Shown: one piece after another, positions 1,923 to 63,680 of the stretch
How positions within the stretch are numbered: position 1 is the stretch's first letter
Layout: every line of letters begins with the position of its first letter
Assembly: GCF_018446385.1 (NCBI RefSeq)
Contig: NC_056002.1
Location: 43,723,671 to 43,787,670 of the forward strand
Direction of reading: 5' to 3'
DNA length: 64,000 bases
Source of the DNA: Zingiber officinale
Taxonomy: Eukaryota > Streptophyta > Magnoliopsida > Zingiberales > Zingiberaceae
Translations under genes and position numbers: made by a program
Notes under the pieces: generated by a model
What the model was told of the DNA's origin: nothing
What the model saw: only the letters and a program-made list of their open reading frames with translations
The model's database searches: none

Positions 1923-2424
1923 TGTTAGGATCCTTCGTACGGAGGCTAGAGAGGGGGGTGTGAATAGCCGACCCCAAATCGTCGTTTCTTTCTACAAAAC
2001 ATGTTAGCGCAGCTGAAAATAAACACAGAAACGAAAGGGAAAGAAGACAAACCTCAAACAAACCGATGTAACGAGGTTCGGAGATAAACTCCTACTCCTC
2101 GGCGTGTCCGTAAGGTGGACGAAGCCTATCAATCCGTCGGTGGATGAGTCCCCGGAGAACCGGCTAATAGATGCTCCTTGTGGGTGGAGAAACCTCGCCA
2201 CAATACTTGTAACAACAAGAAAGGAGTACAAGGAAAGCAAGAAGCAAATACAAACAACAATATGAATGCAACACTCGCTTGCCTTCTCTGTCGACCGGAG
2301 GTGATGAAGCAGCAACTTCACAACCCAACTGCAGCAGCTGATCGACGACTGGAAGCTCACGCGAAGCTTCGGAAGCGAGCTCAACAAAGCTCAGAACCTC
2401 AGAGCACAGGAGCAGAAGCTTCAA

Positions 2425-2465
2425 TCCAAGGAAGAAGAAGAAGAAGTAGAAGAAGAAGAAGAAGC
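2425..2465. repeat. GAA-type microsatellite in solo-1
   Basis: A purine run of GAAGAA and AGAAGA triplets lies just downstream (minus strand) of the solo-1 TATA box, in the presumed R/U5 part of the LTR. Solo-2 has a shorter GAAGAA run in the same place (39362-39380). Confidence 0.7.
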
Positions 2466-2488
2466 CAATGTAGAAGCTCTCAGCCTCC

Positions 2489-2495
2489 TTTTATA
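2489..2495 (-). promoter_or_regulatory. TATA box of solo-1 LTR
   Basis: The minus strand reads TATAAAA followed by GGAGG. The same TATAAAAGGAG context occurs in solo-2 at 39403-39409. This fixes the transcriptional orientation of the LTR. Confidence 0.6.
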
Positions 2496-2550
2496 CCTGC
2501 GGAGAAAGAAGCACAGAAGAAATCTAGTCATTGCGTCGCAACGGCTAGTG

Positions 2551-2757
2551 CTGATCGGTCCACAGACCGATCAGGGAACTTCCTGATCGGTCCGGGGGAC
2601 CGATCAGGCTTTGTGCTGATCGGTCCCCAGACCGATCAGCCCCTCTTGCGCCTCGCTCCTGCTCGGCTTCTGATCGACTCCTGATCGGTCACCAGACCGA
2701 TCAGTTATCACACAGTATGCTACTGATGTGTTACTGATCGGTCACCAGACCGATCAG
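2551..2757. repeat. Array of five CTGATCGGTC hairpins
   Basis: Five inverted repeats have the form CTGATCGGTC, a 4-5 nt loop, GACCGATCAG, at 2551-2574, 2583-2607, 2616-2639, 2681-2704 and 2734-2757. The 10-bp arms are perfect while the spacers differ in sequence and length. A degenerate half-unit (GGATCGATCC) follows near 2774. The array begins 56 bp from the TATA box on its upstream side. No function is known to me. Confidence 0.95.
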
Positions 2758-3019
2758 AATATTCGCGGTATCACTGGATCGATCCAGCTCATGGTTTTCG
2801 CCCAAACCAACATCCGGTCAATCTTGACCTGTTGGTACATTGCGCCTAGCATCCAGTCACTCCCTTGACCTGCTAGGACTCCCCGCTAAGTGTCAGGTCA
2901 ATCCCTTTGACCCACTTAGACTTTTCTCTCCGTACCAAGTATCCGGTCAATCCTATGACCTACTTGGACTTCCCATCACCAGATGTCCGATCACCCTTGA
3001 TCCATCTGGATTTTCCCTT

Positions 3020-3260
3020 GCCCAGCTTCAATCACCAGGACTTTCACCTAGCTTCACTCACTAGGGTTTTCACCTGGCTTCACTCACCAGGATTTCCAAT
3101 CTGTCTGGCTTCACTCACCAGGATTTCCCAACTGCCTGGCTTCACTCACCAGGACTTTTCCAATTGCCTGGCTTCACTCACCAGGACTTTCTAACTGCCT
3201 GGCTTCACTCACCAGGACTTTCCCGTCTGTCTGGCTTCACTCACCAGGACTTTTCCACAT
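3020..3260. repeat. Short tandem repeats, CTTCACTCACCAGGA type
   Basis: About eight imperfect copies of a unit of about 30 bp built on GGCTTCACTCACCAGGACTT lie inside solo-1, with diverged copies in solo-2 (40045-40325). A second simple repeat (GTGCCAAGCTCC..TTGGACTTTTCC) follows at 3335-3460 and is expanded in solo-2 at 40465-40680. Long reading frames across these repeats are artefacts of the repetition. Confidence 0.85.
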
Positions 3261-3663
3261 CCGGTCCAGAGAACGAGCTTCCGAGCCCTCTCTGACCACA
3301 GTCCGGAGAACGAGCTTCCGAGCCCTCTCCGACTTCCCATGTGCCAAGCTTCCATACTTAGACTTCTCCGTGCCAAGTCTCCATACTTGTACTTTTCCCG
3401 TGCCAAGTCTCCATACTTGGACTTTTCCCGTGCCAAGCTCCCTGCTTGGACTTTTCCGAGTCAGGTCAACTCACCTTGGGTCAACCAGGTCAACCTTGAC
3501 CGCGGGTTGCACCCACAATCTCCCAAGCTTGTATCCTTGTCAAACATCAAGATACAAACATTGTCAAACATAACTCGTCAAACATCAAAACACAACTCGA
3601 GTCCAGTCAACTCAAGTCTAGTCAACCAGGTCAACCTTGACCTAAGGTTGCACCAACAGGTAT

Positions 3664-4548: not shown

Positions 4549-6928
4549 TGTTGGTTGCTACTCGGAAAACCTAGAGGTTCCATTGTCAAAAATTTTGTAC
4601 AAAGGTCTGAACCTTTTCCTAGCTACCATGTGTTCTTTAAATTAAATTTTGGATCCCTGCGGAACTTAACACGTTTGATCCAAAACTTAATCTATTTGTT
4701 CTTTTAGGTTTTGACTTGGATCTCCTGCGGAACTTAACACGTTCAACCCAAGTCTCCTTAAGTTATTAATTCCATTAAATATTAATTTCCATAAAAGGTT
4801 CCCAGTACTGACGTGGCGAGGCACATGGCCTTCTTGGATATGGGAGCAACCACCACCGACTAGACAAAACCTTTAATAGAAAGCTAATATTTAATTTCCT
4901 AAAATAACTTTAGGTTAACCAAAGAGAACAATCAAATCACAAGGAAAAGAAAGAAAACAAAAGAACACAACATCGAAAAACATATTCGAAATACTAGATC
5001 ATAAGCCTCTTGTATTTGGTATTATTTCCATAAATAACTAGCATGATGCGGAAATAAAAATTACTAATTATACCTTGTAGAAAAACCTCTTGATCTTCTA
5101 CCGTATTCCTCTTCTAACCTCGGACGTTGTGTGGGCAACGATCTACCAAGATGAGAAACCACCAACCACCTTCTTCTCCTCCAAGCAAGGTTCGGCCACA
5201 AAGGAAGAACTTTACCAAAGAAGAAAATCAAAATACTAACCAAGCTCCAAGAGATGCTAACTTTCTCTCCTTCTTCTTCTTCTTCTCCAAGTAGTATCCG
5301 GCCACCACAAGAACTCCAAGAGAGATGAAGTATTCGGCCACCACAAGAGGAAGAGAGGGAGAGGGTAATGGCCGGCCACAACACCAAGGAAAAAGGAAGA
5401 GAAAACAATAGAGGTTGTATCCCATGAAGGCACCCTCACCCCTTCTTTTATATTCCTTGGCCTAGGCAAATTAGGAAATTTAATTACAATAAATTTTCCT
5501 TAATTTCCTTGACTTGATTTAATTGAGAGAAATAAAATAAAATTTCCCAAATCAATTTCAAGTGGCCGGCCATATCATTGGAAAACAAAAGAGGACAAGT
5601 TTTAATCAACAATTAAAACTTCCTAATTTGTTTCCGGAAATTTAAAAAAAAATAAAATTTCTCTTTAAAATCTCTTCATGGTTAATAAAAGGAAATATCT
5701 ATAATTTTAATTTTATTAACATGTGAATAATTTTAAAGAGAAAATAAAACATCTCTCCAATCTACAAATAAGGAAAGAGATCTAATCTCTTTCTTTAATC
5801 TTTTAAATCTTTTACAAGAGATATTTTAATTCTAATTCTCTTTAAATTATATCTTCCATTATAATAAAAATTAAAATTAAATTTCTTTTTAATTTATTTT
5901 GGCGGCCCTACTAGCTTGGGTTCAAGCTAGGCCAGCCACACTATACCTAGGCGGCCCTAGCTTGGTTCCCAAGCTGGCTTGGCCGACCCTGGGTGGGTAT
6001 AGAAGGTGGGTATAGGTGAGTATAGAACTCTATAAATAAGAGGCTACGATAGGGACTGAGAGGAGGAATTGGTTTTGGTCTCCCGATAAAATTAAGCATC
6101 CCGTGTTCGCCCCGAACACACAACTTAATTTTATCAATGATAATTCATTCCACTAGAGAACTATCATTGAACTACGCACCAATCCCAAATTACATTTTGG
6201 GCTCCTTCTTATTATGAGTGTGTTAGTCTCCTATGTTTAATGTCCACTAATTAAGTGAGTTACGACAACTCATTTAATTAATATCTAAGTCCAAGAGTAG
6301 TACCACTCAACCTTATTGTCATGTCGGACTAAGTCCACCTGCAGGGTTTACATGACAATCTTTATGAGCTCCTCTTGAGGACATTATCAACCTAGTATCT
6401 CTAGGACACAGTTTCCTTCTATAATCAACAACACACACTATAAGTAATACCATTTCCCAACTTATCGGGTTTGTTGATTCAACGAACTAAATCTCACCCA
6501 TTGATAAATTAAAGAAATAAATATCAAATATATGTGCTTGTTATTATATTAGGATTAAGAGCACACACTTCCATAATAACTGAGGTCTTTGTTCCTTTAT
6601 AAAGTCAGTATAAAAGAAACGACCTCAAATGGTCCTACTCAATACACTCTGAGTGTACTAGTGTAATTATATAGTCAAGATAAACTAATACCTAATTACA
6701 CTACGACCTTCTAATGGTTTGTTCCTTTTCCATTTTGGTCGTGAGCTACTGTTTATAATTTATAAGGTACTGATAACATCATCTTCTGTATGTGACACCA
6801 CATACTATGTTATCTACAATATAAATTAAATGAACAATTACAAACAAATGTAGACAATTAGACCAAATGTGATTCTTTATTCATAATAAATGTTTACAAA
6901 TCTTAGGCTTTCAGTATACATTCCAACA
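4549..6928 (-). repeat. 5' LTR of copia-1 (2.38 kb)
   Basis: The LTR starts TGTTGGTTGCTAC and ends CATTCCAACA on the plus strand, giving TG..CA termini, and abuts the primer site at its left end. A minus-strand TATA (ATATAAAAG, about 5445-5453) puts U3 at 6928 to about 5460. About 450 bp upstream of it are two imperfect palindromes, CTAGCTTGGGTTCAAGCTAG near 5910-5930 and AGCTTGGTTCCCAAGCT near 5959. The right-hand flank (CATAA) cannot be compared because the other LTR is outside the window. Short coding-looking stretches at 5060-5470 come from CCACCACAAGA repeats and are not genes. Confidence 0.85.
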
Positions 6929-10757: not shown

Positions 10758-12493
10758 TGATACGATGCATTATCGTGGGGTCAATAAGATGATGTGGTTA
10801 GGAGTCAAGACTACAGAATGGTCAGAAGTCAAGCTTACGTGAAGGTCAGAAGTCCAGCCTCCGTGGCTGGAGTCTAGCCCCCGTGGAGGTCAGAAGTCAA
10901 GCTTGCGTGGCCAGGATCAAAGTCTCAGCTGACGGAGCAGTCAAAGGTTAAGATTACAAGTCGGACAAGAGCCAGCCCCGATAGCGATCAAGGACTGGGC
11001 CCACGGGCCAGGTACAACTGAGGACTGAGCCCATAGGTCAGGTAAAGGTAAAGAAAAGAAGGCCTCTGGCGCAAAACAGACCTAGCATACAGGTCGGAAC
11101 GTACAAGCCATGGATAACAGCAGAGACAGGTCAGGATACAGACCTGGTGTACAGGTCGGAACGTACAAGCCATGAATAACAGCAGAGGCAGGTCGGGATA
11201 CAGACCTGGCGTATAGGTCGGAACGTACAAGCCATGGATAACAGCAGAGGCAGGTCGGGATACAGACCTGGCGTACAGGTCGGAACGTACAAGCCATGGA
11301 TAATAACAGAGGTAGGTCGGGATACAGACCTGACGTACAGGTCGGAACGTACAAGTCAGGGATAACAGCGGACAGATGTAGGTCGGGATACAGACCTGGC
11401 ATACAGGTCGGAACGTACAAGCCATGGATAACAGTAGAGGCAGGTCGGGATACAGACCTGGCATACTGGTCGGAACATACAAGTCATGGATAACAGCAGA
11501 GGCAGGTCGGGATACAGACCTGGCGTACAGGTCGAAATGTATAAGCTATGGATAACAGCAGAGGCAGGTCGGGATACAGACCTGGCGTACAGGTCGAAAT
11601 GTACAAGCTATGGATAACAACAGAGGCAGGTCGGGATACAGACCTGGCGTACAGGTCAGAACGCACAAGTCAGGGATAACAGCGGACAGAGGCAGGTCGG
11701 GATACAGACCTGGTGTACAGGTCGAAACGTACAAGTCAGGGATAACAGCGGACAGAGGCAGGTCGGGATACAGACCTGCCATACAGGTCGGAACGTACAA
11801 TCCATGGATAACAGCAGAGGCAGGTCGGGATACAGGCCTGGCGTACAGGTCGGGACATACGAACCATGGATAACAGCATACAGAACCAGGTCGGAGTACA
11901 GACCGCAGAATGCAGACCTAGCTTCCAGGCACTACAAGACAAACAAGCCAGGGAATCGTAACTGCCTGTCAGAGAATGTAAGAGAATAATCAGTATGTCA
12001 GGGAATATGCTAACAGTAGGGGCACATTACCTCTTTGATTCTACTGCCAGCCTATAAGAAGGTGTGACATGTCATTTACTGCTAGACAAAGTCTGACAGC
12101 CGACATTCCCTGACACCCGTCAGACCTAAAAACATCCGTTGTAGTATAAAAAGGGATGCTTTGTCCCTTATGCAGGTACGCACACTCATCATTTCTCACT
12201 AGTCTTTTCTTTTCGTCCTTTCTCTGTGTTTTCTGGGAAAAAAGTACTTGACTTGAGCGTCGGAGGGCCTGACTCGGGGACTTTTTCCCTGGTTTCTGGT
12301 CTCTAATGACTCGTGGGCTCGTCTGAGTGTGCGCAGAGCCCTAGCGTCATCTTCCCGATCATCATCCTTCGTCATCTGCCCGTGTGAACCCTTTCGGAAG
12401 GGTGCCAGGTAGATCAGACGCCGCAGAGACTTTTCGTCAACTTCTAGTACATCAAGGCCCACCTTCATCCAACTCAGCTTCCGGACGGGATCA
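10758..12493 (+). mobile_element. Probable solo LTR, gypsy-like, with internal minisatellite
   Basis: The right end (CTTCCGGACGGGATCA) and the block CTTGACTTGAGCGTCGGAGG resemble the Tat-1 LTR end and R/U5. A TATA box (GTATAAAAAGGG at about 12143) gives plus orientation. The left end is less certain: TGATACGATGC at 10758 gives flanks TCTCC and TCTTC (4 of 5 matching). The sequences on either side (10665-10757 and 12494-12600) look like parts of one repeat family, as expected for an insertion. There is no coding region. Confidence 0.5.
11080..11905. repeat. 62-bp tandem repeat, about 13 copies
   Basis: The unit runs CAGGTCGGGATACAGACCTG, then GCGTACAGGTCGGAACGTAC, then AAGCCATGGATAACAGCAGA and GG. 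Several copies carry a 4-5 bp insertion (GCGGACAGAGG) giving a 66-67 bp variant. The unit contains an inverted repeat (CAGGTC..GACCTG). Open frames here on both strands only reflect the repeat and are not genes. Confidence 0.95.
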
Positions 12494-13980: not shown

Positions 13981-15705
13981 TCAAAACTCGCACGAGGTGC
14001 CGAGCCTCTGTTTAAACCCCATGCTCTGCCTCCCTGCCAGAGCCAACGGCAGCTGCTCCTCAAACCGCGCCAGGAACAGCCTCCATTCCTCCTCGCTCAG
14101 TCCCTCGAAGGAAACGCTTCTGATCCCGTCGTGGTTCAGGTCCGCCGCCGAGAAGCTGAAGCTTTTGGCGATGACACCGGCGGCCGCGGCCTTGTGCTCC
14201 TTCACGCTGCCTTCGCCGTCGCTGACGTCGACGCCGGTGGAGGAGTCGTGCTCGTCGAAGGCCTTAGTTGGACCCTCGACCTGGCGCCGCAGGAAGAGGG
14301 GCACGCCGAGAACGTCGTCCTCTGTGCGCCTCTCCGGGAATATTCCGTCGTCATCGTCCATGTCGAAAAGGTAGTCCGCCGCCTCGCCGCTCGCTTCCTC
14401 GTCGTCGCTGTTTCCGTGATTTAAATTGCAGCGGGAGAAGAAGACACCGACGAAATACTTCTAAAATTTTATGAATTACCTTTGCGGGAGAGGATGGTCA
14501 GGCGGAGAGAGGGAGCTGTTCCTCATGGACTCTTCCACGCTGATGCATAGCGCTTCCAGCTCGCTCGGTCCTTCCCCTAGTCCGGAGAAGTCCCGCGTCA
14601 TCATCTGCCCGATCTCCGCCAGGCACAGCCCCGCCTCCACCGCCCTCTTCAGCAACACCGTGCACACCACCAGGACCCGCAGGCTCGCCTCTCGCAGCGA
14701 CGGTAGCTCCGCGCGCAGCAGCTCCACGTCCCGGAACGGCTCCAGTGACGCCACGTACTTCTCCTCTGCTTCCGAGAACGGCACCGCCGCCTGTGGCCAG
14801 TGCAGCCACTCGAAGTAGGGATCCTCCAGATGCTCCGGCAGGCATAGCCCGTGGTCGATCGGCACCAGCTCAACCGTCGCCTCGTTGCCGCAACCGCCAT
14901 TCCCCTTCTTCACCAGGATGTTTCCGGCGTGCCGGTCCACGTTCAGGATCCGGACGTCGATGATTCCGATCCGGTGCACTGACGCCACCGAGAACCGCGA
15001 CGGCCCGATCTCGCCCGCGTCGTACTCGTGCGGCACGAACCGCTGGATCGACGCGACGCGCTTCGTCACCGCTGTCTGCTCGCAGGAAACGGGACGGCTG
15101 ATCATGATCAGCGCCGTCGGCGGGACGTCGGCGAAGGTGCCGTGGTCAAGGAGGTAGGCGGCGACCTCGCGGACGCCCATCTCGCTGGCCTGCGCCGCCA
15201 GGTGCTTGAGCACGGACCGCCCCTGTTGCGGCTGCGGCGGGCCATCGAGGTCCATCACCTTCACGACGGCGAAGTTCTCCCCGAAGCGGTCGAAGAGATA
15301 GTGCGCGGCGCTGACGCCGTTGCCGACGGGGACTGGCGTGGCGCCGGAGGCCAGCGCGATTTCTGCCTCGACGACGAGGGCGTGGACTGCGCCGCAACGG
15401 CCGCCGGAGACGATCTCGAGTCGGGCGATGCGGTCCCTCCGGGGTTCGTCGGCGGCCGCCGCCGCAAGTGCAGAAGCGGCGTCGGAGCAGAGGCAGGGGG
15501 TGGAGACGCTGCGGGTGAATTTCCCGCCGCGTTTAACGTGGACATCAAAGCGCGCAGAGAGCGGCGCCACCGCAGGCGACGCGGAGGGCGGCGGGTCAGG
15601 TTCGAAGAACGAGAGCAAATGGGGGAAGGAGAGAAGCAGGCATCGGCGGTGCCTACTGGGCGGCTTGAGGCCATGGCGATGGTCGACTGCGACGGCGGCA
15701 GCCAT
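13981..15705 (-). CDS. Phosphatidylinositol 4-kinase gamma family protein (no ubiquitin-like domain)
   Basis: This is the only intact host gene. The 550-residue product belongs to the plant type II-like PI3/4-kinase (PI4K gamma) family, thought to phosphorylate phosphatidylinositol; some relatives act as protein kinases instead. Start chosen at MAAAVAVDHRHGLKP (15703-15705), which aligns with relatives. FAVVKVMD (about 145-152) fits the ATP-binding lysine strand, VDRHAGN (about 256-262) the catalytic loop, VPIDHG (281-286) the metal-binding motif; PYFEWLHWPQA and GLCLAEIGQMMTR are family hallmarks, as is the ending RLGTSCEF. No ubiquitin-like repeat is present, as in the gamma-1/gamma-8 group. 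Exon 1 ends at 14480. Two in-frame stops follow, removed by a 72-bp intron (14408-14479, GTAATT..AACAG) that keeps frame into DDEEASGEADYLFD. Coding GC is very high. The splice is predicted by eye. Confidence 0.85.
14408..14479 (-). other. Predicted 72-bp intron of the PI4K gamma gene
   Basis: The donor AAG/GTAATT and acceptor AAACAG/CGAC, with a pyrimidine-rich stretch between, flank two in-frame stops (TAA, TAG). Removing 72 bp joins exon 1 to an acidic stretch and keeps the frame to the conserved C-terminus. A 19-bp alternative ending at TTTTAG is too short and breaks the frame. Confidence 0.65.
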
Positions 15706-16451
15706 GAAAGGCGGTGAGCATCGGTGGGGGTGGTCGGTATGCATGCATGTGTCCTTTCACCTCGTGTTAACCATCTCACTTCTCGCCATTAACACTGCTA
15801 AGGTTTCTTCTTCCCGTGGACAATACATCGAAAATCAAAAGGAAGAGGAAAAGGGAAGGAGAGTGAAAAGTCAGGAACCAGAGAGATAGAACATAAGGGA
15901 TGCAGAACAGAAGCTCGTCGGTCGTCGGGTGCAGCTAGCGTTGCGGGGTTCGTCGACGGCTGGATCGGATCGATCACCCCACCGCCACCCTTCTCCTCCT
16001 CTCTCTGCTTCTCTCTACGTCAGTCACGGGCTAAGGGCTCTACTTTTTTCCTTCCACCTCTGGCCATTTATTGAGCTCCGCGCGTCACCGGCTTCTGCGC
16101 CGATGATAAGAATTTTGGGAGCTCCTAGAAATGGATGGATGGATTGGTTCCTGATTCTGCTCGTTTTAGCAGCTGCTTCTTCTTCTTCTTCTTTGGATTT
16201 GAATGGAGTTTGTTGTTTCTTGTTCAGTCGATGGTGATCTGCTGATTGCCGTTAATGGGATGGATTCCACGCACCAACGGATTAGCTAAAAATGGCCGCC
16301 GCTTCCATTCCAGCCTGAAACCACGCGCGATCACCCGCTCGGCCTTTCGCTGTCGAGCAATTTAAAGAATTATATTCTTAGACGAAGAATTTTTGGCAAA
16401 TCACGAGATTGAGTTTTATTATTTTGGTAATGATGGTGTAAAAGAGAGAGG
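15706..16451 (-). promoter_or_regulatory. 5' flank of the PI4K gamma gene
   Basis: The 746 bp between the start codon and the copia-2 insertion hold the 5' UTR and promoter. CT-rich runs occur at about 15985-16015 and 16160-16195 (read plus). I see no clear TATA box. Copia-2 begins 747 bp upstream of the start codon and so may limit or alter the promoter. Confidence 0.45.
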
Positions 16452-24292: not shown

Positions 24293-25600
24293 TGTTGGTG
24301 TAGGAAGCATCCGACGATCGAACCTAAGTTTTGATAATGGCAAAGGAATCAAAGTTAAGCTTATATGTGATCTAACATGTCTAATGGAGATTGCAGGAAA
24401 GTCCTAAGTGTTCTTAGGCAAAAATCCTAGCTGCCGTTAGGCAAGGTGAAAATCCTAGGGGGTGGTAATCCTAGGTCCTAGGGGGTGGTACCCCGAGGTG
24501 GAGGAAAACCCTAAGGGGTGACAACCTTAGGTCGTAGGGGGTGGTAACCCTAGGTGGAGGAAAATCTTAAGGAGGGGTAACCTTAGGTCCTAGGGGTTGG
24601 TAACCCTAGGTGGAGAAAAACCCTAGGGGGCGGTAACCCTAGGTCCTAGGGGGTGGTAACCCTAGGCAGAAAGTCCAATCGGTCTGGAGGACCGGACTGG
24701 CGTCAAGTAATCTCTCCTAAGGGGAGTAGGTGAGGGCGCGTTCCCCGTAGATGGAACAACATGCGTCGGGTTGACCTAGGGTTTCCGGTCGGAAATCCGA
24801 AGTCAGACTCAGACAGTTCGATGACTGTCGATCACTTGATTTATCATCTGTTCTAACTTTTTCTTGCAGGATATGTTGTTCTTTTGGGACTAACGTGTCT
24901 TGCAGGTATAAAAGGAACAAGCTAAGCCTCGGATGAACAGCGTCCGAGGCACCTCCATGGAGCTTGGAGGCACCTCGGGTGCAAAACAGAAGTTGGCTGC
25001 GAAGAGGAGCTGGAGGCTCCTCGGATAGAGCTGGAGGTGCCTTGGAGCAGGGCTTGGAGGCGCCTTGGACTGGCCATGGAGGCGCCTCAATCAGGATAAG
25101 CGACGAAGGTTTCTTCGCTGATCCACGCGGCTGACTCGGGAGGCTTGGAGGTGCCTTGGATGAGGTTTGAGGCGCCTCCAGCAGTGCATAAAAGGGGTGT
25201 TCAAGTAGCAGTGTAAATCATCAATTCTGAAGTGCTTCTACAACAACGTGCTGCTCCAAAAGACGCCCTGAAGTGCTGCTACAAGTTCCTAACGACCCGG
25301 AGCTCCAAGATTTCGATTCTGTCATCGGTATAATTGTTATTATTACTGCACTTATTGTAATACATATTTGTACTATCTTTGCGCGATATAGTTGTTGTCC
25401 ACAAAAAGCGATCAATGATCGCGGGCCTTGGAGTAGGAGTCGTCCTAGGCTCCGAACCAAGTAAAACCTTGGTGTTCTCTTGTGTGCTTGTTGTCTTTCT
25501 TTTATTTACGTTGTGCGTAATTCTTGATCGTTTTACGAATCTACAAAGTGAAAGCCACGAGCTCTATTCACCCCCCTCTCTAGCGCATCTCGATCCAACA
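24293..25600 (+). repeat. 5' LTR of the SIRE-like element
   Basis: It begins TGTTGGTGTAGGAAGC and ends CGATCCAACA. It contains imperfect 30-35 bp repeats built on CCTAGGGGGTGGTAACC (24450-24665), then a cluster of eight GAGGCGCCTC-like palindromes (24944-25178), then a TATA-like GCATAAAAGGGG (25186-25197). A second TATA-like string (GTATAAAAGG, 24905) is not kept in the 3' LTR, where it reads GTACAAAAGG. The 5' and 3' LTRs differ by scattered substitutions and small indels. Confidence 0.9.
24944..25178. repeat. GAGGCGCCTC palindrome cluster, 5' LTR
   Basis: Eight units occur: GAGGCACCTC (twice), GAGGCTCCTC, GAGGTGCCTT (twice), GAGGCGCCTT and GAGGCGCCTC (twice). All derive from a 10-bp perfect palindrome, mostly inside TTGGAGGCGCCTTGGA-like context. 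The last unit ends 8 bp before the TATA-like box. Confidence 0.9.
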
Positions 25601-38856: not shown

Positions 38857-40897
38857 TGTTAGGATCGTCGTACTCGGCTAGAGAGGGGGGGTGTGAATAG
38901 CCGCCCCAAATTCTTCGCGTCTCTTCCTACGATTAGGGTTAGCGCAGCGGAAATGAAACCGTAGAAACGAAAAGGAAGAAGACAAACCTCAAACTCGATG
39001 GATGTAACGAGGTTCGGAGGTGATACTCCTACTCCTCGGCGTGTCCGTAAGGTGGACGAGCCCTATCAATCCGTCGGTGGATGAGTCCCCAGAGAATCGG
39101 CTAATAAATACTCCTTGTGGGTGGAGAAACCTCGCCACAATAGCTTGCAACAGCAATATGGAAATACAAAGAAGAGCAAGAACAAAATACACAATGAATG
39201 TACAAATACTCGCTTGCCTTCTCGTCGACTGAAGTCCCGGATGAAGCACCAACTTCACGGACGAATGCCAACAAGCAACTCAGTCGAAGAAGCTCACACG
39301 AAGCTTCGGAGCTCAGCAAAGCTCAAGAGCACAGCTTTCAGAAGAACAGCAGCTCAGTTCAGAGGAGGAAGAAGAAGAAAGAAGTAGTAGCCCTCGATCT
39401 CCTTTTATAACCTCTGATATCCTGAGCCAACCTGCGAACCTGCAAGCAAAAAGGCCAGAACACAGAAGCCCGAAATAACCTAGCCGTTGAGTCACAACGG
39501 CTAGTCCTGGACCGATCAGGCTCCACCCTGATCGGTCCAGGGTTCTTCTGATCGGTCATGGAGACCGATCAGGCTCTATGCTGATCGGTCCCCAGACCGA
39601 TCAGAATGCTTTCATAGAGAGTTGCCCAACTCTCTGTGCGTACCCTGATCGGTCCCGGGGACCGATCAGGCTTCCTGCTGATCGGTCCCCAGACCGATCA
39701 GTAAGCTCACAGAGGCACACTGATCGCTTTCTGATCGGTCTCCAGACCGATCAGGAAACCACAGTATCAGTGGATCGGTCACCAGACCGATCCAGGTCTT
39801 GGTTTTTGCCCAAACCAAGTCCAAACCAATATCCGATCAACCTTGACCTCTTGGTACATCATGCTTAGCATCCGGTCACTCCCTTGACCTGCTAAGACTC
39901 CCCACCAAGTGTCCGGTCAATCCCTTTGACCCACTTGGACTTTTCTCTTCGTGTCAAGTATCCGGTCACTCCCTTGACCTACTTGACCTTCTCAACACCA
40001 GATGTCCGATCACCCTTGATCCATCTGGATTTTCCCTTGCCCGGCTTCACTCACCAGGACTTTCACCTAGCTTCACTCACTAGGATTTTCACCGCCTCAC
40101 CGGATTTTCCAACTGCCCGGCTTCACTCACGTGACTTTCCAACCCCCGGCTTCACTCACGGGACTTTCCCGCTTCACTCACGTGACTTTGCTGGCTTCAC
40201 TCACGTGACTATCACCTAGATTCACTCACTAGGGTTTTCACAACTGCCCGGCTTCACTCACGGGACTTTCCCCTGCTTCACTCACGGGACTTATCCGTCT
40301 TCTGGCTTCACTCACGGGACTTTCCACATCCGATCCAGGAGAGCAGGCTACGAGCCCTCTCGACCACAGTTCGGGAGCAGCTCGAGCCCTCTCGACTTCC
40401 ATCCGGTCCAGAGCAGGCTCCGAGCCCTCTCGACCAGTTCGGAGAGCAGCTCGAGCCCTCTCGACTTCCCATGTGCCAAGCTTCCATACTTGGACTTCTC
40501 CGTGCCAAGTCTCCATACTTGGACTTTTCCCGTGCCAAGCTCCCTGCTTGGACTTTTCACCATGCCAAAACTCCCTGCTTGGACTTTTCACCATGCCAAA
40601 CTCCCTGCTTGGACTTTTCCCATGCCAAGCTCCCTGCTTGGACTTTTCCCGTGCCAAGCTCCCTGCTTGGACTTTTCCGAGTCAGGTCAACTCACCTTGG
40701 GTCAACCAGGTCAACCTTGACCACGGGTTGCACCCACAATCTCCCAAGCTTGTATCCTTATAAAACATCAAGATACAACTTTTCTGTTCACGTCAAACAT
40801 TGTCAAACATAACTTGTCAAACATCAAAACACAACTCGAGTCAAGTCAACTCGAGTCTGGTCAACCAGGTCAACCTTGACCTAAGGTTGCACCAACA
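38857..40897 (-). mobile_element. Solo LTR of the same family as solo-1 (solo-2, 2.04 kb)
   Basis: It starts TGTTAGGATCG, ends GCACCAACA, and is flanked by a perfect duplication CCTTG (38852-38856 and 40898-40902). It is colinear with solo-1, including GAGGTTCGGAG, ATCAATCCGTCGGTGGATGA and GTGGAGAAACCTCGCCACAA. The minus TATA (39403-39409) and a hairpin array next to it are in the same order. It is longer than solo-1, mainly through expansion of the CCAAGCTCC repeats. It lies between the TATA box and the start codon of the Tat-2 antisense gene. Confidence 0.93.
39507..39796. repeat. Array of GATCGGTC hairpins in solo-2
   Basis: Seven inverted repeats with CTGATCGGTC/GACCGATCAG arms or close variants; the first has arms CTGGACCGATCAGG/CCTGATCGGTCCAG. 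Number, spacing and loops differ from solo-1, but the arms are kept. The array starts 98 bp upstream (minus) of the TATA box. A further inverted repeat TAGCCGTT..AACGGCTA lies at 39481-39503. Confidence 0.93.
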
Positions 40898-43271: not shown

Positions 43272-43646
43272 ACGTCTGTATATGTAGTTAGGCTGCTAGG
43301 CCAAAAAATGATCCTTTTTTGTACTTAGGTCGCTCGGCCTAAAGTTTTAATTTTAATGCAACATTTCCCTTTCGCGTACTTTGTCCTTTTGCTAGTTAAT
43401 GTGTGTTGTCCGCTCGCCTATTATCACATCTCTGGTATTCGAAATGTGTTTTTTTAAGTATTTGGCGTTGCCCTTCCGCTCGGCTAAATATCTAATATTT
43501 CCAATATGCAACATTCCGCTTTGATAGCAGAGATCGCTCGCTAGACACCGATGAAGCACCTTTGGGTACTGGGCCGAGCGGAACGTAGAGACGATCGAAC
43601 GATATTGACGGCGAGTTTCTTGGACAATTGCATCCTTTTTATTGGC
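43272..43646. other. 3' flank of the Tat-2 antisense gene (no gene)
   Basis: This is untranslated sequence between the antisense gene and the tandem array. It contains degenerate array-like motifs (CCGCTCGGCTAAATATC) but no frame. Confidence 0.5.
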
Positions 43647-44862
43647 CTCATCCGCTCGAATGATTTATAGACGCCGGCTCGTATCTCGATATTTAACGTC
43701 GGAGCTCGACGGTCTTCCGCTCAGATGATTTATAGACGTCGGCTCGTCTCTCGATATTTAACGTCGGAGCTCGACGGTCTTCCGCTCGGATGATTTATAA
43801 ACGCCGGCTCGTCTCTCGATATTTAACGTCGGAGCTCGACGGTCTTCCGCTCGGATGATTTATAGACGCCGGCTCGTCTCTCGATATTTAACGTCGGAGC
43901 TCGACGGTCTTCCGCTCGGATGATTTATAGACGCCGGCTCGTCTCTCAATATTTAACGTCGGAGCTCGATGGTCTTCCGCTTGGATGATTTATAAACGCC
44001 GGCTCATCTCTCGATATTTAACGTCGAAGCTCGACGGTCTTCCGCTCGGATGATTTATAGACGCCGGCTCGTCTCTCGATATTTAACGTCGGAGCTCGAT
44101 GGTCTTCCGCTCGGATGATTTATAGACGCCGGCTCGTCTCTCGATATTTAACGTCGGAGCTCGACGGTCTTCCGCTCGGATGATTTATAGACGCCGGCTC
44201 GTCTCTCAATATTTAACGTCGGAGCTCGACGGTCTTCCGCTCGGATGATTTATAGACGCCGGCTCGTCTCTCGATATTTAACGTCGGAGCTCGACGGTCT
44301 TCCGCTCGGATGATTTATAGACGCCGGCTCGTCTCTCGATATTTAACGTCGGAGCTCGACGGTCTTCCGCTCGGATGATTTATAGACGCCGGCTCGTCTC
44401 TCGATATTTAACGTCGGAGCTCGACGGCCTTCCCCTCGGATGATTTATAGATGCTGGCTCGANNNNNNNNNNNNNNNNNNNNNNNNNNNNNNNNNGCCGG
44501 CTCGTCTCTCGATATTTAACGTCGGAGCTCGACGGTCTTCCGCTCGGATGATTTATAGACGCCGGCTCGTCTCTCGATATTTAACGTCGGAGCTCGACGG
44601 TCTTCCGCTCGGATGATTTATAGACGTCGGCTCGTCTCTCGATATTTAACGTCGGAGCTCGACGGTCTTCCGCTCGGATGATTTATAGACGCCGGCTCGT
44701 CTCTCGATATTTAACGTCGGAGCTCGACGGTCTTCCGCTCGGATGATTTATAGACGCCGGCTCGTCTCTCGATATTTAACGTCGGAGCTCGACGGCCTTC
44801 CGCTCGGATGATTTATAGACGTCGGCTCGTCTCTCGATATTTAACGTCGGAGCTCGACGACC
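43647..44862. repeat. 65-bp tandem repeat array, about 18-19 copies, with an assembly gap
   Basis: The unit runs TCGGATGATTTATAGACGCC, GGCTCGTCTCTCGATATTTA, ACGTCGGAGCTCGACGGTCT and TCCGC. Copies are nearly identical. A run of 33 N's (44463-44495) lies inside, so the true copy number is unknown. The array sits between the 3' ends of integrase and the antisense gene, where Tat/Ogre elements often carry tandem repeats that seed satellites. Confidence 0.97.
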
Positions 44863-45007
44863 TTTAAGGCTAATTTGAACACCGTCGTTCGGCGAAGCTA
44901 TTTGTCATCCTTTTTATCATTTTACTGCCTGCATTACAAGTACATAGGCGACCAAAATATACACAAAGTGAGTTACATCAGTGCACCTTTCACCCAGCTC
45001 AATAAGG
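44863..45007. other. Spacer between the array and the end of pol
   Basis: This short non-coding segment lies beyond the array (minus-strand 3' UTR of pol). I see nothing else in it. Confidence 0.4.
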
Positions 45008-52312: not shown

Positions 52313-53604
52313 TGTTGGTGCAGGAAGCATCCGACGATCGAACCCAAGTTTTGATAATGGCAAAGGAATCAAAATTAAGCTTATATGTGATCTAACATGT
52401 CTGATGGAGATTGCAGGAAAGTTCTAAGTGTTCTTAGGTAAAAATCCTAGCTTCAGTTAGGTAAGGTGAAAACCCTAGGGGTGGTAACCCTAGGTCCTAG
52501 GGGGTGGTAACCCTAGGTGGAGGAAAACCCTAAGGGACAACCTTAGGTCCTAGGGGGTGGTAACCTTAGGTGGAGGAAAATCTTAAGGAGGGGTAAGCTT
52601 AGGTCCTAGGGGGTGGTAACCCTAGGTGGAGAAAAACCCTAGGGGCGGTAACCTTAGGTCCTAGGGGTGATAACCCTAGGCAGAAAGTCCAGTCGATCTA
52701 GAGGACCGGACTGACATCAAGTAATCTCTCCTAAGGGGAGTAGGTGAGGGTGCGTTTCCCGCAGAGGGAACAACAGGCGTCGGGTCTACCTAGGGGTTTT
52801 GATCGAAAATCCGAAGTCAGACCCGGACAGTCCAATGACTATCGATCACTTGATTTATCATCTGTTCTAACTTTGTCTTTCAGGGTATGTTGTTCTTTTG
52901 GGACTAACGTGTCTTGCAAGTACAAAAGGAAAAGCTAAGCCTCGGATGAACAGCGTCCGAGGCGCCTCCATGGAGCTTGGAGGTGCCTCGGGTGCAAAAC
53001 AGAAGTTGGCTGTGAAGAGGAGTTGGAGGCACCTCGCATGGAGCTAGAGGCACCTTGGAGCAGGGCTTGGAGGTGCCTTGGATTGACCATGGAGGCGCCT
53101 CAAGCAGGATAAGCCACGAAGGTTTCTTCGCTGATCCACGCGGCTGACTCGGGAGGCTTGGAGGCACCTTGGATGAGGTTTGAGGCACCTCCAACAGTGC
53201 ATAAAAGGGGTGTTCGAGCAGCAGTGTAAATCATCAATTCTGAAGTGCTTCCACTACAACATGCTGCGCCAAAAGACGCCATAAAGTGCTGCTACAAGTC
53301 CCCGACGACCCGGAGCTCCGAGATTTCGATTCTGTCATTGGTATAATTGTTATTATTACTGCACTTATTGTAATACATATTTGTACTATCTTTGCATCAT
53401 ATAGTTGTTGCCCACAGAAAGCAATCAATGATCGCGGGCATTTTAGTAGGAGTCGCCCTAGGCTCCGAACCAAGTAAAACCTTGGTGTTCTTGTTGTCTT
53501 TCTTTTATTTCCGCTGTGCGTAATTCTCGACCATTTTACAAATCCACAAAGTGAAAGCCACAAATGCTATTCATCCCCCCCCTCTAGCGCATCTCGATCC
53601 AACA
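52313..53604 (+). repeat. 3' LTR of the SIRE-like element
   Basis: It begins TGTTGGTGCAGGAAGC and ends CGATCCAACA, followed by the ACTTC duplication. It has the same GGTAACCCTAGGTCCTAGGG repeats (52455-52680), the palindrome cluster (52955-53195) and GCATAAAAGGGG (53198-53209) as the 5' LTR. Confidence 0.92.
52955..53195. repeat. GAGGCGCCTC palindrome cluster, 3' LTR
   Basis: Eight positions correspond to those in the 5' LTR. Some differ at the two central bases (for example GAGGCGCCTC here against GAGGCACCTC there, and the reverse), while the outer GAGG..CCT is mostly kept. Confidence 0.88.
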
Positions 53605-53800: not shown

Positions 53801-55012
53801 TGTTGATATAGGGAGCATCAGAATATTGAACCTGAGTTTTGATAATGACAAACAATTCTAAGTTAAGTGTTATTATTGTTCTAACAAGTTAAACTGAGTG
53901 TGCAAAAAAGTCCTAAGCAATCTTAGGCAAAGGCAAAGTCCTAGCTGTGGTTAGGCAATGAAATCTTGATCCGGGAGACTGGGCAAAGTCTTGACAGGTT
54001 GAGGATATTAGGTAAAATCCTAGGATCATGATTTAGGTGGAAGTACTAGGGGTTGCGGACACCAAGCAGAAGATTGGACAAGTCGGGGATCGAACAACCA
54101 GCAAAAAAGTCCTGAAGTCTCGGATGTTGAGCAAAAGTCCAGACGGTCTAGAGGATCGATCTGGAAAAAGGTAAACTCTCCTGAGAGGAGTAGGTGAGGA
54201 CGCATTTCCCATTGAGAGAGCAGTAGACGTCGGTTCAACTTAGGGTTTTCAAAAAATCAGAAAATTAGAATCAGACGGTCCAGAGACTGTCAAAATACCT
54301 TATTCGCCTACTATTCTAACTCTGTTTTGTAGGAAACTAATATTTTTACACCTAAAGGTTTTTTTACTTTGTTCAGTCGACTGAATGTCGAGATCAGTTG
54401 ACCGAACCTCAAAGATCATATCAGCTCATGGTGAAGTTTTGACCAAGGGATCGGTCAACCGAACCTTGGGTTTAGTCTATCGAATGGTGGATAGACAACA
54501 ACTTGATAGGGCCAGGTTGATCAAACCAGATAAACCGAGGAGCATCAGAGGTTCGGTCAATCGAACAGCTGGATCGATCGACCGAACGAAGACTTTATCT
54601 GAAGTGGAAGCATATGGACTGGAAGTTGGGCAGATTCAGAATGTTCGGTCGATCGAACGGCTAGATTGGTCGATCCATCAACATCGAGTCAAACAGTGAT
54701 CCCAAGATAAGTGGATTTGGATTAGGTTCACCTCGGCTATAAAAAGGGTTCGACCAGTAACTTCGAAAGACATCATTTTTAGAACAACCTTCGCTCTTGC
54801 ACTCTACTCTAGAATGATTCAACAACACCAAAATGTTGCTCTGATAATCGATCACCAACTGCTAATTCTCATGTTGTCGGTAAACTTTGTTTTATTGCAA
54901 TACTTTTTCTTATCATTTCTGTACTCCATTTGTAAAGATTTTTCGAAACTATAGTGATTGCCCAACGAAAGTGATCAACGATTGCGAGGCATGGAGTAGG
55001 AGTTGTCATAAG
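53801..55012 (+). repeat. Truncated LTR of a related copia family
   Basis: It starts TGTTGATATAGGGAGCATCA, like the SIRE-like LTR start, with AAAGTCCTAGC and GGAGTAGGTGAGGACGC blocks in the same order. A cluster of GGTCGATCGAAC-like motifs (54368-54680) is followed by a TATA box (GCTATAAAAAGGG, 54738-54745). It ends at 55012, where another LTR in reverse orientation begins; its own terminus is missing. Confidence 0.75.
54368..54680. repeat. GTTCGGTCGATCGAAC-like motif cluster
   Basis: Seven or so imperfect inverted motifs: CAGTTGACCGAACC, CGGTCAACCGAACC, GGTTCGGTCAATCGAAC, GGATCGATCGACCGAAC, GTTCGGTCGATCGAAC and relatives. The cluster ends about 60 bp before the TATA box. Confidence 0.8.
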
Positions 55013-55702
55013 TGTTGGATCGTGATCGTTTGATCGTTCGATAGGGGGGTGAATACCGATTTAAATAAAATCGAGAGATTACGCAGCGGAAAATGTATAA
55101 GGAAAAGTAATGCTAACACAATTCGATTTACTTGGTTTGGAGCCTTTGGCGACTCCTACTCTAAGGCCCGTACACAAGGGTGCTTTCAACGGACAATTCA
55201 CTAGCAATTAAAAAATTATTACAAACTAAGTACAGGAATGCCAATGAAAAAACAAAACAATACCGACAAAGGAAGAAACTAAAAGAGCAGCGCATTGTCA
55301 GAGCTTCGCAGCGTCGCAGGAGCACAGGAGAGCGGATTCTGAGTTGTTGTTTTGACTCCAACCTTGACTCTCCTTATAAAGGAGGTTTGGGGCACCTGGA
55401 ACCTTCAGGGCACCCTGGAGTGACGTAGATGAGCCAACCAGCGAACTCCACCTGGCACAGCGACGTTGGGGATAACTTTTTGCCTCCGGGCGCCCGGACC
55501 TTGATGTTCAGTAGCTTCCTTCATGCAAGAAAATGTTAGTCCGAGGTAAATATATATCCTGAAAAATAGATTATTAGCACAGTTCATAGTTTAATAGAAA
55601 AAGAGTATTAATTAGATTCCATCTCTCCGAGACCGGAATTTAGTCAGGATCTCGACTTAGAGTTTCGAAATGGTTCTAAGTCGGATCGACGCCTAAGTTC
55701 CC

Positions 55703-57331
55703 TGTTGGATCGAAAGCGCTAGAGGGGGTGAATAGTGCTCATGGATATTTCATTCGTTTCAGAATCGTAAATCAATCGAGAGTTGAAGCAGCGGAATAAA
55801 GTAAAGAGAACAAAACCACACACAGAGACACGAGGAGTTTACTTGGTTCGGAGCCTTGAGCGACTCCTACTCCAAGGCCCACGCTCGTTGAGCGTTTACA
55901 TTGGGCAACACTTATAATCTCGAAAATATATTACAAGCTAAGTACAGATAAAAATAGTAATCAACTTAATACCGACAACAAAGAAATGAAAGTTGAAGCT
56001 CCGGGTCGTTGGGATGATGTTGCAGCACTTCAGGATCATCTCGTTAGCAGCTTGTAGCGTTATGATTGCTCGGGAGTTGTTGTTTTGAGTTGCTGCCTCG
56101 ACCCCTCTTTTATACTGGAGGCACCTCCAAGCCTGTCCAAGGCGCCTCCAGGCCGCCGAGTCGCACGGGTGGATCAGCGCAAACCTGGTCGCACCTTATC
56201 AGGTTTAAGGTCCCTTCAAGCCTCCTCAAGGTGCCTTCAAGCCCTGATCCAAGGCGCCTCCAACTTCCTCCGAGGCGCCTTCAGCTCCTCTAGACAGCTG
56301 GCTTCGGCTTTCACCCAAGGCGCCTCCAAGCCCCATGGAGGCGCCTCGGACACTGTTCATCCGAGGTCAAGTGTGCTTCTTTGTTCCTGCAAAATGTGTT
56401 AGTCCCAAACACCAACCCTGCAAAACAAAGTTAGCACAGAAATATGATAAATAATATTTTGACAGTCCAAGGTCGCACCTTATCAGATTTAAGGCGCCTT
56501 CAAGCCTCCTCAAGGCGCCTTCAAGCCCTGGTCCAAGGCGCCTCCAGCTTCCTCCGAGACGCCTTCAACTCCTCTGGATAGCTGGCTTCGGCTTGCACCC
56601 GAGGCGCCTCCAAGCCCCATGGAGGCGCCTCGGACACTATTCATCCGAGGTCAAATGTGCTTCTTTATTCCTACAAAATGTGTTAGTCCCAAACACAAAC
56701 CCTGCAAAACAAAGTTAGTATAGAAATATGATAAATAATATTTTAACAGTCTCCGGACTATCCGAGTCTGACTTCGGATTTCCAACCGAAAACCCTAGGT
56801 CGACCCGACGCCTACTATTCCCTCTACGGGGAACGTGTCCTCACCTACTCCACTCAGGAGATTTACCTGTTGGCAGTGCGATCCTCCAGATCGACGTTCC
56901 TGGCCCGTCCAGTCTTCCACCTGGTTCGCGACACCAAGACTTTTCACCTAGGGTTACCACCCCCTAGGACTTTTGCCTGAAGCTCTCAACCTGCCAAGAC
57001 TTTTTGCATAGGGTTACCACCCCCTAGGACTTTTGCCTGAAGCTCTCAACCTGCCAAGACTTTTCGCATAGGGTTACCACCCCCTAGGACTTTTGCCTGA
57101 AGCTCTCGACCCGCCAATACTTTCCGCATAGGGTTACCACCCCCTATGACCTAGGGTTACCACCCCCTAGGGTTTTCCACTTGCCTAACCGTAGCTAGGA
57201 CTTTTTCCTAAGAAACCTTAGGACTTTCCTGCAAACTTGTTCAACATGTTAGAAAACAAAATACCTTAACTTTGAACCCTTTGACATAATCAAAATATAG
57301 GTTCGATCGTCGGATGCTTCTCGCACCAACA
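55703..57331 (-). mobile_element. Solo LTR, SIRE-like family (solo-3)
   Basis: It starts TGTTGGATCGAAAGCGC, ends CTCGCACCAACA, and is flanked by a perfect duplication TTCCC (55698-55702 and 57332-57336). It is the reverse-oriented relative of the LTR at 24293-25600: its right end (GGTTCGATCGTCGGATGCTT) matches that LTR's start, and it carries the CCTAGGGTTACCACCCCCTAG repeats (56950-57170). The minus TATA (TATAAAA, 56108-56114) abuts a GAGGCGCCTC cluster. A 284-bp direct duplication (56187-56470 and 56471-56751) contains most of that cluster. Confidence 0.92.
56117..56640. repeat. GAGGCGCCTC cluster in solo-3, partly duplicated
   Basis: Units such as GGAGGCACCTCC, AAGGCGCCTCC, GAGGCGCCTT and GGAGGCGCCTCGG occur about eight times at 56117-56347 and again in the duplicated segment. 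The first unit starts 3 bp from the TATA box. Confidence 0.88.
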
Positions 57332-62666: not shown

Positions 62667-63680
62667 TGTTGGTGCAATCGACCTAGGTTTTGATGTGTGT
62701 GTCAAAGAATTTAAGTTAGGCTTTCATATGTACTTGATATGTGTTTGAGTCTTGCAGGACTTGGTGGAACACATGAGAACTTGGTACGACCAAGTATGAG
62801 AAACTCATCCAAGGGCTCGGATCCTTGAGTCGGTGAAGGATGGTGTGGAAGACATCCGAGGGACCGCCGGACGAGGAGCAATGGAGTGGAGCCGAGGGAA
62901 GTGGACTTCAAGGCAGCATGAAGGATGGCACGGAGAGGAGCCGCGGGCTCAGGTGCATCTGAGGGGCGAAGGCCGAGGAAGAGGACTTCAAAGGCGACTC
63001 CGGAAAGGATGAGAGGAGTGAATGTACTGGGACCAGTCGACTGGTATTGGGTCCAGTCGACTGATCCATTCTGTGCTTGTCGGCTACGGGGACCAGTCGA
63101 CTGGTCCTGAGACCAGTCGACTGGTACATAGCCGTTGGCAGGATTTGACTTTCTGCAGAGAACCGTTGGCTAGGTCCAACGGCACACCAGTCGACTGGTG
63201 CTTGGACCAGTCGACTGGTGTCGGGGTTTGAGTTGATTAGTGATCAACTCTCTCCTCTTATTTAAGGAGAGCTTTGGGGCATTAAGGAGGTTACTGATGC
63301 TTGTAGTTTAACTCCTATTCTGTGCCCAAAGCTCCCAAGTCAATTCTCTTCCTCCTAATTCTAACTCCATCTTGTAAAGAGGAAGAGTGCCCTTGTGAGA
63401 GGTTTGCTCCACCAAGAAGGAGAAGCTTTAGCCGGAGATTGCCGGGGACTGATCCACCGAAGGATCAAGGGATCGTCCACCTCAAGGACACGCCGTGGAG
63501 TAGGAGCATCATCTCTGAACCACGTTACATCGAGTTTGTTAGCATTTGCATTCTTGTTTGTTTCATTGCCTTAGTTTTAGTATATTCCGCTGTGAACTAA
63601 CCCTTGTGTAGAGAAGAAATCGATTTGGGGGTGGCCTAGCTATCCAACCCCCCTTCAAGCCGGCCACCGATCCTCCAACA
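62667..63680 (+). repeat. 5' LTR of a further copia element (copia-4)
   Basis: It begins TGTTGGTGCAATCGACC and ends GATCCTCCAACA, directly followed by a primer site. A cluster of ACCAGTCGACTGGT palindromes (63032-63219) is followed by a TATA-like CTTATTTAAGGAG (63257-63269). U5 contains GGGGGTGGCCTAGCTATCC near the end. Upstream flank is CTATC; the partner LTR is outside the window. It was inserted at, or next to, the spacer of the preceding relic. Confidence 0.88.
63032..63219. repeat. Array of ACCAGTCGACTGGT palindromes
   Basis: Five perfect 14-bp palindromes at 63032-63045, 63092-63105, 63112-63125, 63186-63199 and 63206-63219, and one degenerate copy at 63051-63064. Spacers differ. The last ends about 40 bp before the TATA-like box. 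Confidence 0.95.

Follow-up and report, generated by a model that had tools for sequence, protein, structure and literature searches.

Within one 64,000-nucleotide stretch of the Zingiber officinale genome (the window), several long terminal repeats (LTRs) carry short palindromes beside the TATA box. Do these arrays arise by chance, are they of a known kind, and what might read them? The preliminary description took them for promoter-side arrays of protein-binding type whose core turns over between families. Judged from sequence, their position, the one predominant core class of each LTR, the different cores between homologous flanks and the phasing of the dyads support that proposal.

Palindrome arrays lie upstream of the TATA box

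The palindromes reported beside the TATA box of the first LTR, solo-1, are present as five core dyads (Table 1). For seven window LTRs, we summed the arm lengths of palindromes with perfect arms of at least 7 bases in the 350 bp before the TATA box and compared each sum with 200 dinucleotide shuffles. The sum exceeded all 200 shuffles in solo-1, solo-3 and copia-4. The other four LTRs were weaker, the observed sum being reached by 3 of 200 shuffles for the 55.7-kb LTR, 24 for the 24-kb LTR, 36 for the 53801 LTR and all 200 for the 52-kb LTR. Cores in these four are short or decayed, but they recur far above chance: the word RAGGYRCCTY was found in 7, 8 and 7 copies against 0.00–0.01 expected, and TTCGRTC-type words in 5 against 0.34. 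The figure of five to eight palindromes per LTR therefore holds for recurring cores; as perfect palindromes they rise above shuffles in only three of the seven LTRs. In the 350 bp after the TATA box, palindrome arms were at chance in all seven. Across 20 random 10-kb stretches of the genome (200 kb), GC-rich palindromes numbered 105, against 3, 6, 8, 8 and 9 in five shuffles. The LTR shuffles, the core-word expectation and this 200-kb sample rule out a chance origin of the arrays.

Table 1 Arrays and associated features (positions are in the window unless a locus is named).
Feature	Position	Strand	Details
solo-1 LTR, class A	1923..3658	-	GGTAT on both sides (1918-1922, 3659-3663); U5 signature 2075-2098
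solo-1 TATA box	2487-2495	-	TATAAAAGG
solo-1 inverted pair in the array-TATA interval	2524-2548	none	AGCCGTTG-type, imperfect; perfect in solo-3, L002, L043
solo-1 class A array	2551-2757		five dyads CTGATCGGTC-N4/5-GACCGATCAG: 2551-2574, 2583-2607, 2616-2639, 2681-2704, 2734-2757
solo-3 TATA box	39401..39409	-	TATAAAAGG; LTR right end 40896
solo-3 perfect pair preceding the TATA box	39480-39504	none	CTAGCCGTTG-N5-CAACGGCTAG
solo-3 class A array	39506-39794		includes one symmetric variant, TGGATCGGTC-N4-GACCGATCCA, at 39771-39794
24-kb LTR, class D	24293..25600	+	core sites 24941-25178; TATA-like CATAAAAGG at 25187
52-kb LTR, class D	52313..53604	+	older copy of the 24-kb LTR's family; eight decayed cores, then GCATAAAAGG at 53199
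53801 LTR, class C	53808..55020 (ends approximate)	+	GTTCGGTC/GATCGAAC cores ~54374-54680; TATA 54738-54746
55.7-kb LTR, class D	55690..57331 (left end approximate)	-	array 56117-56640
copia-4 5' LTR, class E	62667..63680	+	followed by ATTGG and TATCAGAGC
copia-4 class E array	63034-63221		six palindromes centred on GTCGAC; TATA-like CTTATTTAAG at 63257
Gag-only Sirevirus-like element, class A	L021 4480-10000		
Gag-only Sirevirus-like element, class B	L010 1-5700		
AGCCGTTG site	window 2524-2548, 39480-39504; L002, L021, L032, L043; L027, L031, L037, L038, L040, L041		

To follow the arrays beyond the window, we searched the 3.09-Gb assembly (211 contigs). A U5 signature matched 22,859 and 22,798 times on the two strands; this and the other genome-wide counts are inflated accordingly if the assembly is the haplotype-resolved ginger genome, with loci on two haplotypes, described in the accessible text of PMC8342452. 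From about 100 listed places of the signature we picked 20, non-randomly, for varied U5 letters and separate elements, and examined 1.1 kb upstream of each; palindromes played no part in the choice. One core class predominated in each of 18 of the 20 sampled LTRs (class A in 4, D in 3, E in 8 and F in 3, as defined below), several of which held one stray word of another class. Sites of the predominant class numbered at least four in 14 of the 18 and one or two in L026, L034, L035 and L039. The remaining two, L036 and L042, had no core in the 1.1 kb upstream of U5, where their sequence is not LTR-like. Upstream of U5 in L037, class A palindromes also lie 900–1043 bp before the signature, beyond the counted stretch, and are perhaps those of a neighbouring LTR.

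With TATA-like boxes picked by eye in 17 of the sampled LTRs, 99 core sites lay upstream of the box and none downstream, where the stretch counted was only the 211–376 bp as far as the U5 signature. The nearest core ended 10–104 bp before the TATA box (median 39), so that the distance of about 3–100 bp first given for the window LTRs is about right for these LTRs from elsewhere. In Sirevirus LTRs, the distance from CpG island to TATA box is given as 37 bp (Bousios et al. 2010, PMC2829016).

Relation to Sirevirus repeated motifs

The preliminary description knew of no report of such arrays. One exists: the arrays are real and are of the same kind as the palindromic repeated motif (RM) boxes of Sirevirus LTRs, which, in the accessible text of Bousios et al. 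2010 (PMC2829016), are family-specific, lie in CpG islands some 37 bp upstream of the TATA box, and are tabulated as 13 family-specific cores, 12 of them with a CGG-CCG signature. Like RM boxes, the ginger arrays are built from many copies of a palindromic motif with a family-specific core; the copies lie in the upstream half of the LTR, shortly before the TATA box, with others in the linker. They differ in several respects. Ginger core classes B, D and E lack the CGG-CCG signature; linker arrays occur in two gag-only elements, whereas the linker copies in PMC2829016 are tied to an env gene; one gypsy family has an array as well; and helical phasing and arm co-variation, described below, are absent from the accessible text of that paper. 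These features are what the ginger arrays add to a kind of array already known.

On cis signals, the elements would belong to the Sireviruses. Tracts of AGGGGGAG occur seven times in L021 and six times in L010, and not on the other strand of either; the last tract in each of these two elements is AGGGGGAGATTG, and thus followed by AT/TG. An inverted repeat surrounds the junction of the PPT and 3' LTR in L021, the one element examined for it: the 16-bp arm to the left of the PPT is found again, in inverse orientation, 78 bp from its start. The letters ATTGG stand between LTR end and TATCAGAGC in copia-4, L005, L006 and L022, with the variants AGTGG in L010 and L015 and GTTGG in L019. A C-rich signal lies near the LTR end in the 52-kb and 55.7-kb LTRs, L008 and L010.

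In L021 (class A) as in L010 (class B), the linker contains another array, whose core is that of the element's own LTR. Only gag was found among the ORFs listed (486 aa in L021, 605 aa in L010), with neither env nor pol among those of L021 (stop to stop, at least 100 aa) or L010 (at least 130 aa). The two elements are possibly dependent on a partner.

The arrays are not confined to this copia group, of which they had been called typical: a Ty3/gypsy LTR family of this genome also has one. Its member L012 encodes Retrotrans_gag, RVP_2, RVT_1 and an H2C2 integrase, and its member L007 an integrase and a sub-threshold chromo domain. This one family, whose TATA box is not settled, carries 15 dyads that fit or come close to GGATCGATC-N4-GATCGATCC, and shares 10-bp arms and a 4-bp spacer with copia class B.

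Clustered palindromes in the LTR regulatory region with predicted hairpins are also described for maize Sireviruses, where the core is, unlike those of ginger, CACCGGAC-N3-GTCCGGTG (Bousios et al. 2016; accessible text of PMC5311732 and PMC10760457). Tnt1-type copia elements carry repeated activator boxes in U3 that differ between subfamilies; as commonly described, these are alike in being repeated and subfamily-specific, but belong to another copia lineage and have another motif.

Core classes and their differences between families

We grouped the cores into classes: A is CTGATCGGTC-N4/5-GACCGATCAG; B is GGATCGATC-N4-GATCGATCC, with G its gypsy form; C is GTTCGGTC/GATCGAAC, without spacer; D is GAGGCGCCTC; E is ACCAGTCGACTGGT; F is CCGGGCGCCCGG-like; and H, of unsettled lineage, is CACACGGCCGTGTG, in L011 and L014. 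The copia LTRs of the genome have at least six cores. By reading of the cores, the CGG-CCG signature is present in A and F, partial in C and absent from the other three, B, D and E.

Different cores stand between homologous LTR parts. The class B LTR of L010 and the class A LTR solo-1 have homologous stretches from the LTR start up to the array (452 bp at 80% for the longest, and as much as 88% for others), with no matching stretch beyond it. Upstream stretches are common to five of six A–B pairs. Among E–A pairs, the stretch from TATA box to U5 is common to 53 of 54, and upstream stretches to four. Both sides of the array in the class C 53801 LTR match stretches of five of seven class D LTRs; in L015, the other class C LTR, only the downstream side is shared, again with five of the seven. 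D–F pairs have a common upstream stretch in 5 of 28 cases and a common downstream stretch in one.

Class D cores are decayed: 53 AGGNNCC words in eight D arrays comprise 27 with CG, 12 with TG and 10 with CA at the variable positions, a mix that fits past CpG methylation. Class E cores are less decayed, with CG in 42 of 48.

In locus L015, two stretches of class F LTR sequence (1600-2230 and 4900-5102), some 3.2 kb apart, flank a copia gag domain; together they form a short element that is probably non-autonomous.

Spacer lengths and co-varying arms

The spacers had been called not conserved, which is true of their letters but not of their lengths. Among 156 exact GATCGGTC half-sites at the analysed loci, LTR mates included, 108 have an inverted partner 3–5 bp away (6, 79 and 23 at 3, 4 and 5 bp). 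None has its partner at 0–2 or 6–21 bp, 17 have it at 22–39 bp, and 31 have none within 40 bp. Among 50 of the class A matches listed at 31–33 bp between centres (see below), the letters make up 30 distinct sequences, or 13 groups at no more than two mismatches.

Do the two arms of a dyad change together? We chose dyads on their inner seven bases only, with spacers of 4 and 5 bp in the first copia set and the gypsy set and of 3–5 bp in a second set of ten further elements, and re-dealt the right arms within each array in 5000 rounds. As spacers were preset in these sets, spacer length is judged from the half-site count above only. At arm positions 8–10, complementary pairs numbered 136 against 119.7 expected in the first copia set (n = 54), 34 against 20.9 in gypsy (n = 15) and 151 against 124.8 in the second set (n = 61), each reached in 0 of 5000 rounds; these counts are of sequences, not events, because dyads of one array are related by descent. 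At positions 11–14, the first copia set has no excess (61 against 60.7), and the excess is weak in gypsy (29 against 21.7, 110/5000) and in the second set (77 against 68.8, 518/5000), where position 11 alone gives 29 against 20.5 (25/5000). Co-variation of the arms extends to about 10 bp.

Between presumed LTR mates, almost all differences are confined to one arm: 46 are one-armed and two are two-sided, neither of the latter a clean pair exchange, over 606 positions in 10 pairs. Four of these pairs have gap-rich alignments, and one, that of L012, may be made up of two copies that are not mates. Joint change of the arms therefore happened in the mobile lineage, not after insertion.

Helical phasing of neighbouring dyads

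Centre distances between neighbouring class A dyads have a best period of 10.5 bp (R 0.65, offset 0.2 bp, n = 85). Gypsy and class E dyads each have a best period of 10.7 bp (R 0.93, n = 13 and R 0.76, n = 34, respectively), and in all three cases none of 1000 jittered nulls reached the observed value. With each spacing value counted once, nulls reached it in 20 of 5000 rounds for class A, 16 for gypsy and 541 for class E, so counted the class E phasing is not significant. Class B, with n = 10 too small to tell, is not significant either, and class D (n = 41) shows no 10.5-bp phase, its preferred period being 11.5 bp. Intervals within 1.5 bp of a multiple of 10.5 make up 67 of 85 in A, 12 of 13 in G, 32 of 41 in E, 6 of 10 in B and 22 of 41 in D, where 29% is expected. 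When intervals of like sequence are collapsed, those of A, B and G form 55 lineages, of which 38 are in phase where 15.7 would be expected.

Genome-wide, GACCGATCAG-N-CTGATCGGTC with gaps of 5–35 occurs 65,728 times. By bp between centres, class A neighbours at whole turns number 35,319 at 31–33 bp (3 turns), 2,293 at 41–43 bp (4) and 26,598 at 52–54 bp (5), some of the last enclosing a further half-site, against 125 at 36–38 bp (3.5) and 690 at 46–48 bp (4.5); since most copies are related by descent, the counts give the extent to which phasing is kept, not independent events. Fifty of the matches listed in the 31–33 bp set have a gap of 8 in 48 and of 7 in two, and comprise 30 distinct sequences in 13 groups. 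Class E has 5,362 neighbours at 51–53 bp and 882 at 46–48 bp; in most of the listed 46–48 bp matches, the distance adds up shorter steps across sites in between. Relative to the TATA box, class A dyads have no consistent phase (six LTRs, R 0.37–0.69), and class E dyads are near whole turns in five LTRs (R 0.59–0.87, with no null computed). A narrow literature search found no description of helical phasing of LTR or retrotransposon palindromes.

That tens of thousands of copies keep whole-turn spacing suggests an agent that counts helical turns and reads class A arrays in the form of double-stranded DNA.

Candidate explanations

We think it rather likely that the arrays are a cis-regulatory part of U3, corresponding to Sirevirus RM boxes, and serve as sites for a putative DNA-binding protein, phased on one face of the helix. 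Each dyad of 8–24 bp would be the site of a sequence-specific, probably dimeric protein. In class A, class E and one gypsy family, neighbouring dyads are integer helical turns apart, and such spacing would put the bound proteins on the same side of the double helix, upstream of the promoter. The core would be replaced as a set between families while other LTR parts stay homologous, so that the factor acting on one family may differ from that on another or be its paralogue. Recurrence, position, phasing, the fixed length of the spacers, arm co-variation and the differing cores between homologous flanks are seen in the sequences; protein binding, an effect on transcription, and the identity and origin of the factor are what we infer here.

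A DNA-binding factor acting on one face would explain the position, the fixed gap lengths, the phasing, the symmetry and the equal cores in the two arrays of one element. Evidence on its side includes the 99-to-0 distribution about the TATA box, phasing in A, E and gypsy, the same core in LTR and linker of L021 and L010, and the dyad common to class B and gypsy, together with the lack of a sense-strand preference in folding and of a G-U over A-C bias, both given below. Against it count the 11.5-bp preference of class D, the non-significant phasing of class B, the once-counted class E result (541/5000) and the lack of phase between class A dyads and TATA box. Independent half-sites of one homodimer do not predict the co-variation of the arms, which needs several site types or another cause.

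A bolder version is possible but tentative: copia and gypsy LTR arrays might be platforms for a cooperative complex of several dimers that needs its dyads on one face, with specificity and core replaced set-wise per family, in the manner of an arms race, be it against silencing or among rival elements. Why structures able to feed small-RNA silencing persist in elements such as Sireviruses is a question raised in the accessible text of PMC10760457. How recognition of a mobile-element promoter is replaced could be studied in a natural series here, made up of the dyad common to copia and gypsy and of the differing cores between homologous flanks.

Alternatively, the dyads could work at the RNA level, forming hairpins in the U3 of the 3' LTR that serve as a processing or packaging signal, or could matter mainly as a hairpin source of small RNAs, as discussed for maize Sireviruses, whose palindromes are small-RNA hotspots (accessible text of PMC5311732 and PMC10760457). 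Arrays do fold well: fold energy lies under that of shuffles in all 17 arrays examined (z −3.9 to −22.5) and under that of the downstream stretch in 17 of 18 LTRs, the comparison using an arbitrary point in L029, where no TATA-like box was found. The arms co-vary, and in 14 of 17 arrays the sense strand has the lower raw MFE. Corrected for composition, however, the sense strand has the lower z in only 5 of 18, and G-T and A-C mismatches are equal (31 against 30; 18 + 13 against 9 + 21 in two sets). Class C dyads leave no spacer for a loop, and nothing in RNA calls for the whole-turn spacing of B-form DNA. The mismatch balance and the 5-of-18 sense-strand count disfavour a sense-strand hairpin as sole cause. 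Because of the phasing and the absence of strand and G-U bias, we favour a protein-on-DNA array and regard the RNA hairpin as unlikely.

A protein encoded by the element itself might bind the array and counter silencing, by analogy with VANC of VANDAL transposons, core and protein changing together. VANC targets are non-coding tandem repeats that diverge rapidly and whose short motifs, specific to each family, change in concert within it (accessible text of PMC10398659), and in ginger, too, the core is replaced set-wise per family and is equal in LTR and linker arrays. VANDAL elements differ from the ginger elements in being DNA transposons, and their binding protein is their own. L021 and L010 have both arrays and only a gag ORF among those found (at least 100 aa and at least 130 aa), and the B/G dyad in copia and gypsy fits a host factor better. 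We hold this account to be distinctly improbable.

Mutation alone, in which snap-back or template switching during reverse transcription copies an arm and slippage multiplies the units, giving dyads without selection, is very improbable: it would account for the same change often found in both arms and for the AGCCGTTG site, single in class E and an inverted pair in several class A LTRs, but is disfavoured by the absence of core sites between TATA box and U5 against 99 upstream, the fixed spacer lengths despite varied letters (30 distinct sequences, 13 groups, 50 rows), the whole-turn spacing with 38 of 55 phased lineages, and the one-armed differences of presumed LTR mates (46 against 2).

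Other features of the window

The AGCCGTTG site lies between array and TATA box across LTRs with different cores, as an inverted pair in class A and singly in class E; it resembles a MYB or MSA site. Class A and class E arrays alike contain a further palindrome (CACAGAA...TTCTGTG or GAACAGAATGCTTCTGTTC) between their cores. The array region of the 55.7-kb LTR contains a 284-bp duplication (56187-56467, 56471-56751). Longer tandem repeats, with 56-bp and 31-bp units, occupy the LTR part preceding the array at 24448-24666, 52468-52680 and 3073-3257, and large tandem arrays of 65-bp, 62-bp and approximately 12-bp A/T units lie at 43518-44965, 11076-11878 and 61097-62263. At 14476-15753, an ORF with a PI3/PI4 kinase domain (Pfam E 1.5e-37) is likely a host gene or gene piece.
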